Source: Stieleria maiorica (GTDB lineage Bacteria > Planctomycetota > Planctomycetia > Pirellulales > Pirellulaceae). Taken from it: 64,000 nt of DNA. Below the pieces are notes generated by a model. That model did not search any database and was not told where the DNA came from. It saw only the letters and a list, made by a program, of their open reading frames with translations. How positions within the stretch are numbered: position 1 is the stretch's first letter; each line of letters starts with the position of its first letter. Location: positions 8,694,428-8,758,427 of the forward strand of contig NZ_CP036264.1 in NCBI RefSeq assembly GCF_008035925.1, in the 5' to 3' direction. Positions 13,177-25,168 of this stretch are shown in pieces. A program made the position numbers and the translations under genes.

Positions 13177-13727
13177 CGGACCAGCGGTGGATCCCGCGAC
13201 GGGCGCAGCAAGCGACCTGGCAACGATGCCATCGTGTCGGCGTTGGCGGTAGCGCATGACCAGACTCGGGGTGCCGGCAGCAGCAAACTCTATAGTGAAC
13301 AGACCCATCTCGCGTCTCCGTGACCGCTTTTGACGGCGAAGAGAACCAGTGCGGTGCGAGCCAATCTGTTGACGCCGACCTCACCCTGGAAGGTCCCTGA
13401 AGCGTCCGTTTCGTGGTAGGTCTTCTGACTTCCGATTCTCGTCGCCCACTTCGCCTTCTCGTCATTCGGTCACCTTGCGTCAAGCAGGATGATCCGCGGA
13501 CAATGGCCAAAAGAGTGAAGTGTGGACGGCTGATCGACGCGCCGGCACCCAGGCCAACGAGACAATCAACAGCATCGGTTACAGCGGCCGGGCCGTCTTG
13601 GAGTTTCACCAAAGTTCCCTGTTTCCGCCGACGATTCCTTATCGCCCGACGGCACCACCAAACGTTGGATGCGAAAGGTAGACCCGCCCGCACCGACTGT
13701 CAACCGTTTTCCCCGAGACGCCCACCG
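13177..13727. other. Divergent intergenic region without a gene
   Basis: Separates the DUF1559 gene (minus) from kdsB (plus). A frame continuous with kdsB upstream of 13728 is open but encodes a basic low-complexity stretch and begins well before the conserved KdsB N-terminus, so I treat it as non-coding. No clear promoter or RNA structure is seen. Confidence 0.5.
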
Positions 13728-17468: not shown

Positions 17469-18137
17469 TCACAGCATCTCGCTGATCGCCGACTGCAACT
17501 TTTCAAACTGCTTCGACTCGGGCCAACTATAAAACCCTTCGATCTTGCCTTCCGCGTCGACCAGCACAAACTTCTCGGTATGAAAGCCCTTGTCGACCGG
17601 CTGCTGAAAGATCTCGCCACCGATGCGGCGGATGTAGGTCAGATCACCGGTTAAAAACAGCCACTGATCTTCGTCGGCTCCGAAGCGGGCGGCATACTCG
17701 CGCAACACCTCGGGCGTGTCACGCTCCGGATCCACGGAGATGGACAGGAACACGACGTCTTCGCCTTCGAATCGATCCTGCAACTGCTTGATCTTTTGAT
17801 TCTGTTGCGGGCACACACTCGGGCAGTTGGTGAAGAAAAAACTGACCACGTAGGGCTGGCCCAACAAGTCTTCACTCTTGACCAACTCGCCGCTGCGTTC
17901 GGTCAACTCGAAACGGCTCAACCAAGCCTCATCTTCCGGCGGCCGGGCGACTTCTTCATTGGCAATCTCAGAACTGTCCGAGACCACCGGCTCCTCGCCA
18001 GGCGCCACCTCGGAAGTGTAGACCACTTCATCAGGGCTCGGACCGGAAGAGGCCGATCGCTGGCGCAGCGTGCGTCCCACCAGTCCCAAGACGACACCCA
18101 CCAACAAAATCGCGGCTAAATTGGACGCGGTTCTCAT
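17469..18137 (-). CDS. SCO1/SenC-type copper chaperone, 222 aa
   Basis: Delivers copper to the CuA site of cytochrome c oxidase. N-terminal membrane anchor over residues 5-22 (NLAAILLVGVVLGLVG), acidic linker to about 85, then the thioredoxin-fold domain with the copper ligands: Cys-X3-Cys in TNCPSVCPQQNQK and the distal His in KGFHTEKFVLVD. All three ligands are present. It begins 4 bases after ctaB ends and belongs to the same operon. Confidence 0.9.
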   Translation of the reverse strand: MRTASNLAAILLVGVVLGLVGRTLRQRSASSGPSPDEVVYTSEVAPGEEPVVSDSSEIANEEVARPPEDEAWLSRFELTERSGELVKSEDLLGQPYVVSFFFTNCPSVCPQQNQKIKQLQDRFEGEDVVFLSISVDPERDTPEVLREYAARFGADEDQWLFLTGDLTYIRRIGGEIFQQPVDKGFHTEKFVLVDAEGKIEGFYSWPESKQFEKLQSAISEML

Positions 18138-18140
18138 AGC

Positions 18141-19202
18141 TCACCAAAACACACGGATCGTAACGACCGCCAACACGGCGGGCAGCACCAGCAACGACGA
18201 TCGCAGCAATCGACGTGCTGTCACATCGTTTCGGTCGCGGGCAAATCGCAGCGAAGCCTTTAACATCGGGACCGTGGCCAACAGCACCGCGAAACTTCCG
18301 ATCACTGCCGGAACCATACCCGGCGCCAGCCAACACAGTGCGACACCGCAGCCGATCACTGACAATGACCCGACAATGCTTTGCACCGCCGCGGAAATCC
18401 CCGTCGGCTCGACCGTCGTCGACATGCAAAAACCGGCCTGCTCATATTGCCGGCGGTAAAGCCACGCGATGGCCATGAAATGGGGATACTGCCACGCCGC
18501 CAAGACGCCGAACAACAACCATCCTGTGCCGTCGGCCAGCGAACCGCCCAGGGCGGTGTATCCGATCAACATCGGCAACGCACCGGCGATCGCGCCGACC
18601 GTGGTGTTCCATGACGTCCGGGTCTTCATCGGCGTGTACAGAAACACGTACAACAACCACGTGGCCAAACCGACGGCCGCCGGCACAATGGAAAATCCCA
18701 TCCATAGAATCGCCAACCCCAACGTGCCCATCGACGCGGTAAACGCTGTCGCCACGGCCGTCGACATCCGAGCGGCCGGCAGCGGACGAACCGCCGTGCG
18801 GGGCATGTTGCGGTCGATCACCCGCTCCCAAATCTGATTCGCCCCGCCGGCGCTGCCGGCGACCATTCCGGTGCCCAACAGCAACAACGCAAGCTGACCC
18901 AGTGACACCAAACCGCCGGCGGCAATCATCGCGGTGGCGACCGTCGTCACCAGGATCATCACGACGATCCGAGGCTTGGTCAGCTGAATCAGGTCCGAGA
19001 CCAACACGCGTAGCGAAACCTCCGCTTTGTCCAACCGTCCACTCGATGCCGGCGGTGCCTGGGCCATCGCTTCCCTGCGCTGTGGTACATCCCTGCGATG
19101 GGCCGGCATTTCGAGTACCGCCACCCCCAATCCAGACTCGACGCCAACACCGTGGCGATCGGTTTCATAGCGGGAATCGGTGACGAGGACGTTGCTGGAC
19201 AT
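18141..19202 (-). CDS. ctaB: Heme O synthase (protoheme IX farnesyltransferase), 353 aa
   Basis: UbiA-type prenyltransferase that adds farnesyl to heme b. Eight to nine helices from about residue 80. The prenyl-diphosphate motif region reads NQIWERVIDRNMPRTAVRPL: the second Asp is present but the first Asp of the usual DxxxD is replaced by Glu. The second conserved block WQYPHFMAIAWLYRRQYEQA matches family members. The N-terminal 45 residues are extra; ATG at 19067 (MAQAPPASSGRL) would give the common size of about 308 aa and may be the true start. Between ctaA and SCO. Confidence 0.88.
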   Translation of the reverse strand: MSSNVLVTDSRYETDRHGVGVESGLGVAVLEMPAHRRDVPQRREAMAQAPPASSGRLDKAEVSLRVLVSDLIQLTKPRIVVMILVTTVATAMIAAGGLVSLGQLALLLLGTGMVAGSAGGANQIWERVIDRNMPRTAVRPLPAARMSTAVATAFTASMGTLGLAILWMGFSIVPAAVGLATWLLYVFLYTPMKTRTSWNTTVGAIAGALPMLIGYTALGGSLADGTGWLLFGVLAAWQYPHFMAIAWLYRRQYEQAGFCMSTTVEPTGISAAVQSIVGSLSVIGCGVALCWLAPGMVPAVIGSFAVLLATVPMLKASLRFARDRNDVTARRLLRSSLLVLPAVLAVVTIRVFW

Positions 19203-19208
19203 AACTGA

Positions 19209-20222
19209 TTAAACGTGGGTGGCAAGCGTTCGCTGACGTAAAACTTGAACCAAGACGACCGCCGATGTCGCCAAAATCAGCGACCCGACCGCAACGTGCG
19301 CGGTCACGATGATCGAATCCAGGAATCCCTTTGAGCGAACCAAAAAGCCTTCGCCAAACGGAAGAAACTCCAAAACGCTCGGCCAACCGTAATTGACAAT
19401 CCAGGTCCCGGTCCCGAGCAAGATTTGACAGCCCACAAACCATATCAGCCAACCCGCCGGCCTGGACAGCGTCAAATCGCCGCAGCGACGTACCAAAAGG
19501 AACAAAACCGGCGTCAACAGCCACAATCCGAACGCGGTGACGATGTGGACCGCCACAATCAACGTGAACGTCCCCGGCGTGGTCAGGGGCTGTACGTGCC
19601 GCAGTTGTGCCCCCAGGACCAACTGCAAATAGCTCAACAGCACGGGCAGCGTCGCCATCGCCAACGCCACACCACCCAGCGGCTTTGTCGGTTGCGTCGA
19701 CGCTGCGGCCAGCGGCCGATCCCACCAGCGGCGGCTGGTTACCGATGCGGCAACGCAGCACAGCACAAACACCACCGGTCCGAAACAACCGTGAATCATC
19801 GCCGTCGTCCGATCGCTCAACAACACTCGGACGCCGCCGAGCGCCCCTTGCGAAATCACGGCGACCAGAATCACCACCGTCAGCCACAACACCCATCGGC
19901 GATCTTCGCGGCGGATCGCGGCGACCACCATCGCGATCGCCACCAATCCGACGACAGCACCCAACAGACGGTGCCCGTGTTCGATGAACAGGTCAAACGG
20001 CCCATAGACCCACGTCGACAGGGGATACAGAAACAGGTTGTAGCCGTACGTCCCGGGCCAATCCGGAACCGCCATCCCCGCGTCGTAGGTGGTCACCAGA
20101 CCGCCGACCCAGATCAGCGGCCAGACCAGACACACCGACAGCACCGCCAAACGATGCAATAACTTCGATCGCTCGTCGGCAGGGTTCGGGTTCGTTTCGC
20201 TCGGTTCGTTTTCGCTCATCAA
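19209..20222 (-). CDS. ctaA: Heme A synthase (COX15/CtaA), 337 aa
   Basis: Oxidises heme O to heme A in the membrane. Eight helices. Motifs: GGLVTTYDAGMAVPDWPGTY (residues 41-60), the heme-binding His in EHGHRLLGA (about 82-90), QGALGGVRVL, and IHGCFGPV, with second-half histidines in VAHIVTAFG-like and ITVTAHVAVG regions. Starts MMSEN, so the ATG at 20219 is an alternative. It is spaced 6 bases from ctaB. The presence of ctaA and ctaB means the organism makes an aa3-type oxidase, whose subunits are outside the window. Confidence 0.93.
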   Translation of the reverse strand: MMSENEPSETNPNPADERSKLLHRLAVLSVCLVWPLIWVGGLVTTYDAGMAVPDWPGTYGYNLFLYPLSTWVYGPFDLFIEHGHRLLGAVVGLVAIAMVVAAIRREDRRWVLWLTVVILVAVISQGALGGVRVLLSDRTTAMIHGCFGPVVFVLCCVAASVTSRRWWDRPLAAASTQPTKPLGGVALAMATLPVLLSYLQLVLGAQLRHVQPLTTPGTFTLIVAVHIVTAFGLWLLTPVLFLLVRRCGDLTLSRPAGWLIWFVGCQILLGTGTWIVNYGWPSVLEFLPFGEGFLVRSKGFLDSIIVTAHVAVGSLILATSAVVLVQVLRQRTLATHV

Positions 20223-20233
20223 TCTCTTCTTGC

Positions 20234-20296
20234 CTGTGGGATAGGCTTCTAGCCTGTCGTCCCCTGACGTTGACAGGCTAGAAGCCTATCCCACGG
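20234..20296. repeat. R3 repeat as inverted pair (hairpin)
   Basis: TGTGGGATAGGCTTCTAGCC (left arm, then TGTC) and GACAGGCTAGAAGCCTATCC (right arm, then CACGG) form a stem of more than 20 bp between ctaA and the small membrane protein gene. It could end or protect a transcript but has no T run. Confidence 0.75.
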
Positions 20297-20306
20297 CGCT
20301 ACCCCG

Positions 20307-20483
20307 CTACTTTCGATTTCTCAGCCCGTGCGTCTTTTCGCCCAGGATGCCGCCGGCCAAGGCCCCGCCGGCGCCGAAGATCGCCCCCGGCACCACGCCG
20401 CTTTGCCCTAACAGCGTCATCAGCACGATCCCCAGGCCCAACCCCAGGATCGCCCCGATGCTGCGATAACCTTCACGACTCAT
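20307..20483 (-). CDS. Small glycine-rich membrane protein, 58 aa
   Basis: MSREGYRSIGAILGLGLGIV and on: one or two short helices with Gly-X3-Gly spacing (glycine-zipper pattern) over residues 8-48, ending in a basic tail (HGLRNRK). The ATG overlaps the stop of the diheme cytochrome gene (ATGA, 4 bases), which strongly supports it as a real, translationally coupled gene. Too short for a family assignment. Confidence 0.6.
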   Translation of the reverse strand: MSREGYRSIGAILGLGLGIVLMTLLGQSGVVPGAIFGAGGALAGGILGEKTHGLRNRK

Positions 20484-21712
20484 CGTTTTGCCTCGCCGAG
20501 TGACTTCACGTAATGAACGATGTCCCAAACCTGATCGCCGGTCAGCCCCGTTGCTGACGGCTCGCCCGACAGGCTGATCCCGGCCATGGGCGTGCCCGCG
20601 ATGCCGGCGACGATCCGGCGATACAGCGTCTCGGGATCCCCGCCGCCGCGATAGACCCCGTCGGTCAGCCTGCGCGGATGAATCTGCCGGGGCCGCAAGG
20701 CGCCCGCCGTTCGAAACGGACGCACCGCCTCTCGATCGGTCGGCGTCACCGCAATCCCCTCGGTAAACTCCTTGGTCCAATCGTCAAAGTCGAACGTGAC
20801 CAGATCCCCACCGCCTTGCTTTCCGTGACAGCCGGCGCAATTGGCGATTCGCCCATGAAACAACGCGTCGCCACGCGCGATCGACGCATCGTCGGCGGGC
20901 GCTTCCTCAGGGACAGGAATCACCGACTGATCGGCGTCGACCCATTGTCCGGTGATTCGGTCGAGCGTCTCGCGGGCCACTTCCACGGCGAATGCTTGCG
21001 GATCCATGGAAGCCAGCGTCAACAAACTCGCATCATCGTCCGGACGCGTTTCCTCGTACCCCAGCTCCACCACCGCTTCGGTCAACATCCGGCGTTCAAA
21101 TTCACCGCGGACGGACAGGTAAATGACGTAGTCGACCAACGCGGCCAAGTCATCCTCGGACAGACGCTCGAACGATGGCATCGCCGTCCCGGGCGCCCCA
21201 TGACGCAAGATTGCCAACAAGTCCTGGCGAGTCGGTTTTGCTCCCCGCTGGGTCGACTTCCACTTGTACACGCCGGCACGAAAGTCGCGCGGGTAGGGGT
21301 TTTGCAGCAGCGACGCGGGCCCATTTCCGCCGCCGGAGACCCCGTGGCAGGTGACACAGTGTTCGTTGAAAAGCCCGAAGTGCCGGTTGGACTGGTCGCT
21401 GTAGACCGGCCCAGCGGCCCGCTGCAGGTTCTCCAGACCGACCAGCGTCTTGGCTTCATCGTGCGACATCTGGTCGACCGGCCACCGCGGCTCGATCGGA
21501 GTCCCGAACCAGGCCTCCAGCGCCGCCGTCGTGTCTTCGGCCGCCAGCTCAGTCGGCACGTCCAGCTTGGCCGAAACGACCAACGAATAGACTCGGTTGG
21601 GTGGATAATGCTCCACCGGGGCATCGCAGCCGCACAAGAAAACTGCGACAAGCATCGGCGCCGTAAGAATCGGCAGCTTTGAAAAGGGCGTTTTGTCGAC
21701 GGTTGATCTCAT
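20480..21712 (-). CDS. Diheme cytochrome c lipoprotein, 410 aa
   Basis: Two heme-attachment sites are visible: CVTCHG (about residue 121-126) and CAGCHG (about 285-290). Candidate axial Met residues are in GTAMPSFERLS and GTPMAGISL. The N-terminus MRSTVDK... LVAVFLCGCDAP is a signal with a lipobox-like CGC, so it is probably lipid-anchored in the periplasm. Start at 21712; an ATG 12 codons upstream gives a less typical leader. It should carry electrons to the oxidase whose assembly genes follow. Each half looks like one cytochrome c domain. Confidence 0.88.
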   Translation of the reverse strand: MRSTVDKTPFSKLPILTAPMLVAVFLCGCDAPVEHYPPNRVYSLVVSAKLDVPTELAAEDTTAALEAWFGTPIEPRWPVDQMSHDEAKTLVGLENLQRAAGPVYSDQSNRHFGLFNEHCVTCHGVSGGGNGPASLLQNPYPRDFRAGVYKWKSTQRGAKPTRQDLLAILRHGAPGTAMPSFERLSEDDLAALVDYVIYLSVRGEFERRMLTEAVVELGYEETRPDDDASLLTLASMDPQAFAVEVARETLDRITGQWVDADQSVIPVPEEAPADDASIARGDALFHGRIANCAGCHGKQGGGDLVTFDFDDWTKEFTEGIAVTPTDREAVRPFRTAGALRPRQIHPRRLTDGVYRGGGDPETLYRRIVAGIAGTPMAGISLSGEPSATGLTGDQVWDIVHYVKSLGEAKR

Positions 21713-21883
21713 TGCAGCAGCGTAACCGAACGCCGCGGCCTGGACCAACCGAATGAATTGTCGCAGTTTGGCAGCCGCGGCATCGCCCTGGGCTTATCCG
21801 TTCCCAACGGGAACGCTACCGATTCGCCCAACCGTTCGGGCCCAAACGTTCGGGCCAAACGTTTTTCATCCGCTGGAGAAATC

Positions 21884-21972
21884 AGGTAAGAAGATTTCGG
21901 GGGTAAGAAAATGGTTGAATGTCTTCTCCAATTCGACTTGGCTAATTTTCCTACCCCATCAATCTTCCTACC
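21884..21972. repeat. Dispersed 90-bp repeat R4, copy 1
   Basis: GGTAAGAAGATTTCGGGGGT (left, then AAGAAAATGG) and GCTAATTTTCCTACCCCATC (right, then AATCTTCCTACC), each arm itself a doublet. An inverted copy with the same order of motifs is at 40220-40311. No gene lies in the remaining gap 21713-22108. Confidence 0.8.
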
Positions 21973-22047
21973 AGCCCAGTCCGAGGACTTGTCACCGATC
22001 TCTCCCCATCAACCCCCGCATGTCGCAGGCGTTCTCAATTTCCCGCT

Positions 22048-22083
22048 TGTTCCCGGCCACAGCCCCCAGGAACAAGCGGGATA
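22048..22083. terminator. Hairpin downstream of the cupredoxin-like gene
   Basis: CCCGCTTGTTCC and GGAACAAGCGGG form a perfect 12-bp stem with a 12-base loop, 26 bases after the stop of the minus-strand gene at 22109. There is no T run after it, so it is a terminator-like or RNA-stabilising hairpin rather than a proven terminator. Confidence 0.5.
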
Positions 22084-22108
22084 GAGGGTTTGACAGAAGC
22101 GCGGTCGC

Positions 22109-22912
22109 TCAGCCGCCGAACGCGTCGACCGGGATTTCGATCGTTCCCATGTCGTTCATGCCGGGCTTGATTTCAACCTCGAACTTGCTGCTTCGCCATT
22201 CGGTTTCTTCGCCGTCGATGATCACATCCTTCAGTGACCCGTTCTCGTGGTTGGCCCGAAAAACGACTTCGTCACCGACGGGCAACCCCTTGATCTCCAG
22301 CACGCCATCTTCATCGCTGACCGCCGCAAAGGGGTGATCGAGCACGACGACCTGGGCCTTCATCCAGTTATGGATATTGCAAGCGACCGGAATCGGCGCC
22401 GGCTCGTCCTCTTTCAGCTCAATCTCGACCGACCCACCGGCGGGGACCGTCAGGTTCTGCTGGGTGTTGTTGAAGAACTGGAAATTCGCGTTGTGGCCGA
22501 CCTTATCCGGGTTGGTGACCTTGATCGTGTCGCCCTTCTTAGCGATCAACACGTGGGGCTCGAACCGGCAATCCAGGTTGGCCAACTCGTGAGTTTCCGG
22601 CTTCAATTCCATTTCCGGCAACTCCGTCCCGCGACGTCCCGTGTATACGTAGACGATCACGTTCTTGATGCCGCTGTTCTTGGGATTCACGACCAGGGTT
22701 TCATCCGGAATCTCCTTCAATCCGCAAAACGCCTGATCCACGTTGGGGGCGATCGGCGGAAAGGATTTCGCCGCCCCTTTCAATTTGAACGTCATCCGCA
22801 GCGTGCCCGTTTCTTGGGCCTGGGCGGGTGGGCTGGCCACCAGCATCGCGCAAACGGCGATCGCGGCGGCCGAAGGAACAAACAATCGGGTCAAAGATAC
22901 AAAGTGGTTCAC
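22109..22912 (-). CDS. Cupredoxin-like secreted copper protein, 267 aa
   Basis: GTG start at 22912 is preceded by TAGGAG seven bases upstream, which decides the start. Signal peptide over residues 1-32 (FVPSAAAIAVCAMLVASPPA, cleavage at AQA-QE). Residues about 110-190 form a cupredoxin domain with the ligand set His (VGHNANFQF), Cys-X2-His-X2-Met (VACNIHNWMKAQV). The C-terminal part (about 195-265) fits a carboxypeptidase-regulatory-like beta sandwich. Such proteins occur beside planctomycete respiratory clusters and may carry electrons or copper. Leads the oxidase-assembly region, 396 bases before the cytochrome c gene. Confidence 0.85.
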   Translation of the reverse strand: MNHFVSLTRLFVPSAAAIAVCAMLVASPPAQAQETGTLRMTFKLKGAAKSFPPIAPNVDQAFCGLKEIPDETLVVNPKNSGIKNVIVYVYTGRRGTELPEMELKPETHELANLDCRFEPHVLIAKKGDTIKVTNPDKVGHNANFQFFNNTQQNLTVPAGGSVEIELKEDEPAPIPVACNIHNWMKAQVVVLDHPFAAVSDEDGVLEIKGLPVGDEVVFRANHENGSLKDVIIDGEETEWRSSKFEVEIKPGMNDMGTIEIPVDAFGG

Positions 22913-23056
22913 ACGTAAACTCCTACAGGGGTGGATGCCTCGAACGCGTCGAGTGTAATTGGTCCGCGGGGCGAGATTAAGACCGCGTCCGGCAGCGACA
23001 TCAAAAGCGAGTGACATCGAAAGCTTTCTCACAAAGCCTGGTTCAAGACGAGCAAA

Positions 23057-23107
23057 GAAAAAGGCGGCGGCCGAACCAGAGCGGGGAACTCAGCCGGCCG
23101 CCGCCTT
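23057..23107 (-). terminator. Intrinsic terminator of the candidate small RNA
   Basis: On the minus strand, AAGGCGGCGGCCG pairs with CGGCCGCCGCCTT (13 bp), followed by TTTCTTT. It is the strongest Rho-independent terminator seen in the window. Confidence 0.8.
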
Positions 23108-23194
23108 CTCAAAAACTAGTCGTCGGGAACCGCGTCGCCACTGGGGGTGGGGTGGGGTAAAGCGGGCGACAGAAACACGATTCCCGGGGGGTCG
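23057..23194 (-). ncRNA. Candidate small RNA with C-rich loop
   Basis: A near-consensus promoter (23201-23228) would start transcription near 23194 on the minus strand, and an intrinsic terminator ends it at about 23057, giving about 138 nt. The 5' half folds as GGGAA...GTCGCC / GGCGAC...TTCCC, presenting a 25-base loop with three C runs (ACCCCACCCCACCCCC). A linker GACGACTAGTTTTTGAG separates it from the terminator stem. C-rich loops of sRNAs in other bacteria pair with Shine-Dalgarno sequences. No known RNA family (SRP, 6S, tmRNA) is recognised. The alternative is a leader with an attenuator for the gene at 22109-22912. Confidence 0.5.
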
Positions 23195-23200
23195 AGTGGA

Positions 23201-23228
23201 ATTATACGCATAAAGGAGAAAATGTCTA
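23201..23228 (-). promoter_or_regulatory. Near-consensus sigma-70 promoter
   Basis: Minus strand: -35 TAGACA (23228-23223), 16-bp spacer, -10 TATAAT (23206-23201). Five and six matches of six to the consensus, far above the background of this GC-rich sequence. Confidence 0.75.
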
Positions 23229-23471
23229 CCGCTAAAGCGCCGTAAAGACCCGCGAAGTTCCGTCGGCCGGGTTGGATTCGTCGTGACCGAGCCTCTCGGA
23301 TCGCCGTAGCTACGCTCGCCAGAGCGTGGAAAACCCCGCTGATCCACCTTCTGGCGAAGGTAGCTACGTTTGTCCAGCCAACCCGCTGCACCATCTGCCA
23401 TCCTTTCCGCCGAACAATTACATTGCCGCATCAGCGATCCGTTTGGTTGAACCCTTCCCGTGGTGAATGTG

Positions 23472-24761
23472 ATGAAAGTATTGGTGGTCGGTAACGGTGG
23501 ACGCGAACATGCCCTCGCGTGGAAACTCGGACAAAGCCCGAAGGTGACGGAGGTCTTCGTCGCACCGGGCAATGCAGGAACCGCCATCGAAGCGACCAAC
23601 GTCGACATCGCGGCGACCGACGTCGACGACCTGGTCCAGTTTGCCAAGCAGCACGCCATCGACCTGACCGTCGTCGGCCCCGAAGCCCCGCTGGTGCTGG
23701 GTCTGGTCGACGCACTCGAAGAAGCCGGCTTGCGCGTCTTCGGCCCCACCGCCGCCGCGGCCGAACTCGAAGGCAGCAAGGTGTTCTGCAAGAACCTGCT
23801 GCACACCGCCGACATCCCCACCGCCGATTACCGCACCTTCCGAAACGCCGACGACGCCTCGCGATACATCAAAGACAAGTACAGCGAACCGACCGATCAG
23901 GTCCCCGTGGTGGTCAAAGCCGACGGACTGGCCGCCGGCAAAGGCGTGATCGTCTGCGAGACCCGCAGCGACGCCCTGCAAGCGATCGACCGCATCGCCG
24001 GCCAAAAGGAATTCGGCGAAGCGGGCAACGAACTGATCATCGAAGAAAAATTGATCGGCCAAGAAGCCAGCGTGCTGGCGATCACCGACGGCGAAACCAT
24101 CATCTCACTGCCGGCCGCCCAAGATCACAAACCAGCCTACGACGGAGACACCGGCCCCAACACCGGCGGCATGGGCGCGTACTGCCCGACGCCGATCGTC
24201 GACGAAGCGATGTTCGCGAAAATCGAATCCGACGTCCTGGTCCCCGTCGTCCACGCGATGAAACGCGCGCGAAAACCCTTCAAAGGCGTCTTGTACGCCG
24301 GGCTGATGCTGACCGCCGCCGGCCCCAAAGTCCTGGAATTCAACGTCCGGTTCGGTGACCCGGAGTGCCAGCCGCTGCTGATGCGGCTGAAATCGGACCT
24401 GTTCGACGTCCTGGTCGCCGCGGCCGACGGAAAACTCTCCGAAATCGAACCGCTCGAGTGGGATGACCGCCCCAGCCTGTGTGTCGTGATGGCCAGCGAA
24501 GGCTACCCGGGCAGCTACGAAAAAGGCCGCGTGATCACGGGTTTGGAAGACGCCGCCGAAGTCGAAGACGTCAAAGTCTTTCACGCCGGAACGACCACCG
24601 TCGACGGCAACGTCGTCAACGCCGGAGGACGGGTGTTGGGCGTCACCGCGATCGGCAACACCATCAGCGCCGCAAAACTCAAGGCCTACACCGCCGTCCA
24701 AAAAATCCGCTGGCCCGGCGCCTGGTGCCGCAAAGACATCAGCGACAAGGCGCTGGGGTAG
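23472..24761 (+). CDS. purD: Phosphoribosylamine-glycine ligase (GARS), 429 aa
   Basis: Second step of purine synthesis: joins glycine to phosphoribosylamine with ATP. Start at ATG 23472 (MKVLVVGNGGREHALAWKLG), the invariant N-terminal motif; two or three GTG codons just upstream are in frame. ATP-grasp marks follow: VKADGLAAGKGVIVC (about 140-155), EEKLIGQEASVLAITDG, and the phosphate/substrate block QDHKPAYDGDTGPNTGGMGA. Full length for the family. Single gene, no operon partner visible. Confidence 0.96.
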   Translation: MKVLVVGNGGREHALAWKLGQSPKVTEVFVAPGNAGTAIEATNVDIAATDVDDLVQFAKQHAIDLTVVGPEAPLVLGLVDALEEAGLRVFGPTAAAAELEGSKVFCKNLLHTADIPTADYRTFRNADDASRYIKDKYSEPTDQVPVVVKADGLAAGKGVIVCETRSDALQAIDRIAGQKEFGEAGNELIIEEKLIGQEASVLAITDGETIISLPAAQDHKPAYDGDTGPNTGGMGAYCPTPIVDEAMFAKIESDVLVPVVHAMKRARKPFKGVLYAGLMLTAAGPKVLEFNVRFGDPECQPLLMRLKSDLFDVLVAAADGKLSEIEPLEWDDRPSLCVVMASEGYPGSYEKGRVITGLEDAAEVEDVKVFHAGTTTVDGNVVNAGGRVLGVTAIGNTISAAKLKAYTAVQKIRWPGAWCRKDISDKALG

Positions 24762-25104: not shown

Positions 25105-25164
25105 CCAACTTCCAACTCCCAACTCCCAACTCCCAACTCCCAACTCCCAACTCCCAACTCCCAA
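25105..25164. repeat. 7-bp tandem repeat (CCAACTC)n
   Basis: Eight copies of CCAACTC/T in a row just downstream of the minus-strand gene ending at 25169. A short-unit repeat likely to slip; no coding role. Confidence 0.9.
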
Positions 25165-25168
25165 CCGC

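Follow-up and report, generated by a model that had tools for sequence, protein, structure and literature searches.

Among the small RNAs of the Firmicutes, RoxS and FsrA bind their targets via C-rich regions (PMC8216469), and the C-rich regions of IsrR act on mRNAs independently of Hfq (PMC9410917). The regulatory RNAs of the planctomycetes are scarcely described, and a review table of 2022 holds 8 for the whole PVC group versus 345 for the Proteobacteria (PMC9029176). One candidate RNA of the Planctomycetes, the Rhodopirellula-1 motif, which has no Rfam accession going by its table entry, is given in that entry as an ambiguous RNA, probably cis-regulatory, present in both Proteobacteria and Planctomycetes (Weinberg 2010, PMC2864571).

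The DNA analysed here (the window) comprises 64 kb within the 9.9 Mb single-contig genome of a planctomycete, in which a small-RNA gene with a predicted transcript of approximately 140 nt was delimited on the minus strand, at positions 23054-23194, by means of covariance models (R1-R3). It is considered rather likely that this gene encodes a stand-alone small regulatory RNA that works without Hfq and probably acts in trans, through the pairing of a CCCACC loop with target RNAs.

Promoter, terminator and architecture of the RNA

The preliminary description of this DNA had proposed that the best promoter and the best terminator of the window frame a stretch without a gene, and both assertions were borne out. 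The promoter, TAGACA-16-TATAAT (23228-23201, minus strand), matches the promoter consensus at 11 of 12 bases and is the sole site in the 64 kb with a match of at least 10/12; mononucleotide shuffles lead one to expect 0.1 sites of at least 11/12 per window. The -35 hexamer TAGACA (23223-23228) is part of a conserved block, TTTAGCGGTAGACA (23223-23236), and the -10 hexamer TATAAT lies at 23201-23206, from which a transcription start is predicted at approximately 23194, some 7 nt after the -10 element. The pattern GGTRGACA-N15-18-TANNNT was found in 31 of the 37 aligned loci, and the first T, the second A and the last T of the -10 hexamer are invariant in every one of them, while the promoter block as a whole is degenerate in two genera (g44 and g7). 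This block is rare elsewhere in the genomes of the genus, and its use as a regulon signal was rejected, as GCGGTAGACA-N15-18-TANNNT occurs at no more than one other site per genus genome, which does not exceed the count of a reversed control pattern.

At the opposite end, the 50 nt that precede the T-run at 23062 fold with -32.1 kcal/mol, the most stable of the 232 hairpin-plus-T-run candidates of the window, although this hairpin was missed by a simple terminator scan, apparently through an interruption of the stem near its apex. The segment from 23194 to 23050 folds with -65.2 kcal/mol, compared with -46.5 +/- 3.6 kcal/mol in the shuffled sequences (z -5.1), and when six members were folded as single sequences, each formed two hairpins (z between -3.8 and -10). 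Neither a tRNA nor an Rfam family was located in the stretch 23057-23228.

Hairpin 1 (23125-23186, minus strand) is made up of an outer helix, a one-sided bulge, an inner helix of 6 bp and a C-rich loop, with covariation in both helices. The loop, ACCCCACCCCACCCCC, is unpaired in the fold, just as the preliminary description had it. The bulge, which reads GUUUCUG in this genome (23170-23176), has a conserved UUCUG core, the last G of which pairs in the inner helix, and the hairpin is followed by a conserved single-stranded linker, CUAGUU here (23114-23119), with the consensus CUWRUU; both the bulge core and the linker are kept in most of the 37 loci. The core of the loop, CCCACC (23151-23156), was found in 35 of the 37 loci, the exceptions being two members of genus g53, with CCCUCC and CCCCCC. 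The sequence of the loop around CCCACC drifts while the core stays, and in an alignment of 18 rows made without fitting to the structure, the core stands out as a block of conserved columns in every row.

Hairpin 2 and its U-tract (23054-23108, minus strand) form the intrinsic terminator, as indicated by both fold and covariation. The apex loop, which is UUCCCCG in this genome, is a second C-rich loop that is kept mainly inside the genus. Hairpin 2 itself is retained across the aligned loci, while the U-tract is absent from four of them (L036, L037, L051 and L052), in which termination may differ from that of the other members. In these four loci the 3' hairpin has outlasted the U-tract, and may serve purposes other than termination.

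Conservation and covariation in the Pirellulaceae

A DNA search revealed that the stretch is present in relatives, with the promoter, both hairpins and the C-rich loop retained, and the relatives named at this locus belong to Rhodopirellula, Stieleria, Roseiconus and Rubripirellula. Using the covariance model, a single copy of the RNA was identified in each of 13 of the 14 genus genomes, Rhodopirellula baltica among them; the only genome with no match is 85% complete. In the family Pirellulaceae, the final model returned the RNA in 44 of 241 genomes and in 8 of 68 genera, following earlier rounds in which it had been detected in 14 of 149 sampled family genomes and then in 38 of 241. There is one copy per genome, except for one fragmented assembly that has two.

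Matches within the family score at least 49 bits, versus no more than approximately 30 bits outside it, where the covariance models found the RNA nowhere credible. Among these weak external matches, L054 has neither the promoter nor the neighbouring genes, L055 and L088 cover only the terminator half, and the remainder are presumed by score alone to be due to chance. One further locus, L056, which was left out of the count, has, in the corresponding position, a -10 element together with a hairpin and a terminator, and may be a diverged form of the RNA.

The preliminary description had looked to relatives for conservation of the promoter, the loop and the terminator, and this check was passed, in 8 genera and with strong covariation. 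In the alignment of 37 loci, which was fitted to the covariance model, both positions have changed with pairing retained in 32 of the 34 base pairs, and 92% of the cells pair. Double changes were observed in 233 cells, compared with 64.5 in the shuffled alignments and 18-42 when the alignment was slid, and the observed values were reached by none of 500 shuffles, although these controls ignore the tree, and are thus strong evidence rather than formal probabilities. In the alignment not fitted to the structure, double changes were still found in 17 of 23 pairs, and the same helices were recovered when every possible stem was scanned without such fitting. Stacked helices were scanned because the ranking of single columns by covariation was too noisy. 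The conservation of the promoter, the stems, the loop core and the terminator hairpin over 8 genera is well supported, and the helices have been under selection as RNA.

Function of the RNA and alternative readings

The small RNA proposed in the preliminary description is supported by this same set of conserved elements. In the mechanism envisaged here, the strong promoter would give rise to a discrete RNA of approximately 140 nt, the 5' hairpin of which would present the C-rich loop with its CCCACC core, followed by the unpaired CUWRUU linker and the 3' terminator hairpin. The loop core would pair in trans with GGUGGG sites in the target mRNAs, and this pairing would alter their translation or stability without Hfq, as in the C-rich-loop RNAs of the Firmicutes. 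The pairing would be Hfq-free because a search for Hfq (PF17209) gave no match in any of the 14 genus genomes, whereas the control search detected the protein in both Escherichia coli and Bacillus subtilis.

The preliminary description had suggested that the C-rich loop could pair with G-rich Shine-Dalgarno sites. The conservation of the loop core favours the loop as the functional part, but general pairing with Shine-Dalgarno sites is doubtful, and a blanket blocking of these sites is unlikely, given that, through its conserved A, the core is complementary to GGUGGG, and not to the usual GGAGG. No complementarity of the loop to the leaders of the two neighbouring genes, purD and a cupredoxin-like gene, was found (mean z of +0.2 and +0.6, respectively, versus shuffles), and any RNA target would therefore lie elsewhere. 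A role in cis is conceivable, as the RNA always adjoins one and the same gene and shares its strand.

Instead of pairing, the RNA may bind a protein via the CCCACC loop, the bulge or the linker, and thus act as a sponge or scaffold, which is a tentative reading that draws on the sequence conservation of the loop core, the UUCUG bulge and the CUWRUU linker, beyond what a short pairing seed would need. Binding of the CsrA type involves a GGA motif, however, which the loop does not have, and there is no known candidate protein; the variation of the core to CCCUCC and CCCCCC in the two g53 members also counts against this reading. A combination of the two modes is equally tentative, in which the RNA would be a lineage-specific global regulator of the Pirellulaceae, independent of Hfq, and its CCCACC loop, UUCUG bulge and CUWRUU linker would join a putative RNA-binding protein in a dedicated complex that acts on mRNAs with GGUGGG sites.

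The genomic setting of the RNA bears on a further reading. The cupredoxin-like gene (22109-22912, minus strand; Pfam Cupredoxin_1, E 1e-5, slightly short of the gathering score) lies downstream, on the same strand, in all 37 loci, and its distance from the RNA in this genome, given as 145 bases in the preliminary description, was measured at approximately 142 nt. Upstream, purD (23472-24761, plus strand; Pfam GARS domains) is divergent in nearly all the loci, and is lacking only where the contig stops short of it.

Given this constant position and the strength of the terminator, the RNA could be a 5' leader or attenuator, with the terminator governing read-through to the cupredoxin-like gene, perhaps as copper levels or the redox state change; premature termination with a possible copper response had been suggested in the preliminary description. 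This is improbable on present evidence. In the scan of all possible stems, the known helices have values of 0.14-0.39, against no more than 0.05 for all others, so that no conserved antiterminator, i.e., a covarying alternative helix, was found. The spacer between the RNA and the gene varies from approximately 75 to 350 nt among the loci, and in three subclades it contains a conserved promoter-like block, with TACACT (22952-22957, minus strand) as the candidate -10 element here, by which the cupredoxin-like gene seems to have a promoter of its own past the terminator. Taken together, the lack of a covarying alternative helix, the variable spacer and these promoter-like blocks make attenuation unlikely, albeit not impossible. 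In L081, L083 and L084, furthermore, purD and a cupredoxin-like gene are adjacent without this RNA, which also speaks against attenuation and indicates that the linkage of these two kinds of gene is independent of the RNA.

A number of other features were observed in the window. The cupredoxin-like gene heads a run of consecutive genes on the minus strand (17469-22912), encoding cupredoxin-like, cytochrome c, CtaA-like, CtaB-like and SCO-like proteins, the CtaB-like and SCO-like labels coming from reading the sequence only, and this run looks like a respiratory oxidase assembly cluster. Between purD and the RNA, at 23305-23378, there is a dispersed REP-like repeat with GTAGCTAC ends, of which this genome has approximately 15 other listed copies, and the relatives G013 and G007 have many. 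A cobalamin riboswitch (61.5 bits) lies at 13398-13674 on the minus strand, and a short tandem array of CCAACTC units at 25105-25165.

The two remaining readings fare much worse. A small or leader peptide, for which a GTG frame 20 codons long (VFLSPALPHPTPSGDAVPDD) runs across the loop, is very improbable. Of the 37 loci, 17 have a closed frame through the loop, but they do not agree in frame, length or stop, and the other 20 have no such frame. Many loci have CTTG or CTTA in place of the linker stop (CTAG or CTAA), and no open reading frame is conserved over the 37 loci. The idea that the locus is a DNA G-quadruplex on the plus strand, or a mere promoter and terminator with no functional RNA, deserves almost no credence, since the motif noted in the preliminary description, GGGGGTGGGGTGGGG and a further GGG, is indeed present in this sequence but four runs of at least 3 G are found in only 2 of the 37 homologues, and the RNA helices covary, including those of hairpin 1, which is no terminator, contradicting both versions.

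The genus has no detectable Hfq, and this makes the RNA a suitable starting point for the study of regulation by RNA in a group that has received little attention. The RNA is well delimited and deeply conserved, it occurs in Rhodopirellula baltica, a model species, and its loop is defined and can be mutated, by which the regulation by small RNAs without Hfq becomes testable in this phylum.

Comparison with known RNAs

At the site of the RNA, the Rfam scans at both gathering and relaxed thresholds returned chance matches only. The lowest E-value of the relaxed scan (0.048) was obtained for CcsR1 (RF02791), with 18.7 bits against a gathering score of 65.3, and this match is read as chance because it consists mostly of the GC-rich terminator and lies far under that score. 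Like 6S RNA (RF00013), the RNA is small, conserved and non-coding and has a bulged hairpin, but 6S RNA has one long hairpin with a central bubble, whereas the present RNA has two hairpins and no match to RF00013. An identity with 6S RNA was rejected, as Rfam did not find the latter in the 14 genomes of the genus, and it is a different RNA in the relatives. Three relatives outside the genus (L113, L115 and L116) have 6S-type RNAs of approximately 190-220 nt, in the form of one long hairpin.

No earlier description of the Pirellulaceae RNA was found in the open-licence literature, although Rhodopirellula-1 is the one earlier candidate that could overlap it, and the two may be identical. Judged by its table entry only, Rhodopirellula-1 occurs in two phyla, in contrast with the single family of the present RNA.

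The closest likeness in kind is with RsaE/RoxS, FsrA and IsrR of the Firmicutes, which are likewise short intergenic RNAs with one or more 5' hairpins, single-stranded C-rich regions and an intrinsic terminator at the 3' end. The Pirellulaceae RNA differs from them in its phylum, promoter and neighbouring genes, and it matches no Rfam family at gathering score; as far as these three RNAs have an Rfam model, none of them is in the relaxed list. The RNA is filed as a new family of the C-rich-loop small RNA kind, distinguished from the RNAs of the Firmicutes by one main C-rich loop, with the core CCCACC and its nearly invariant A.
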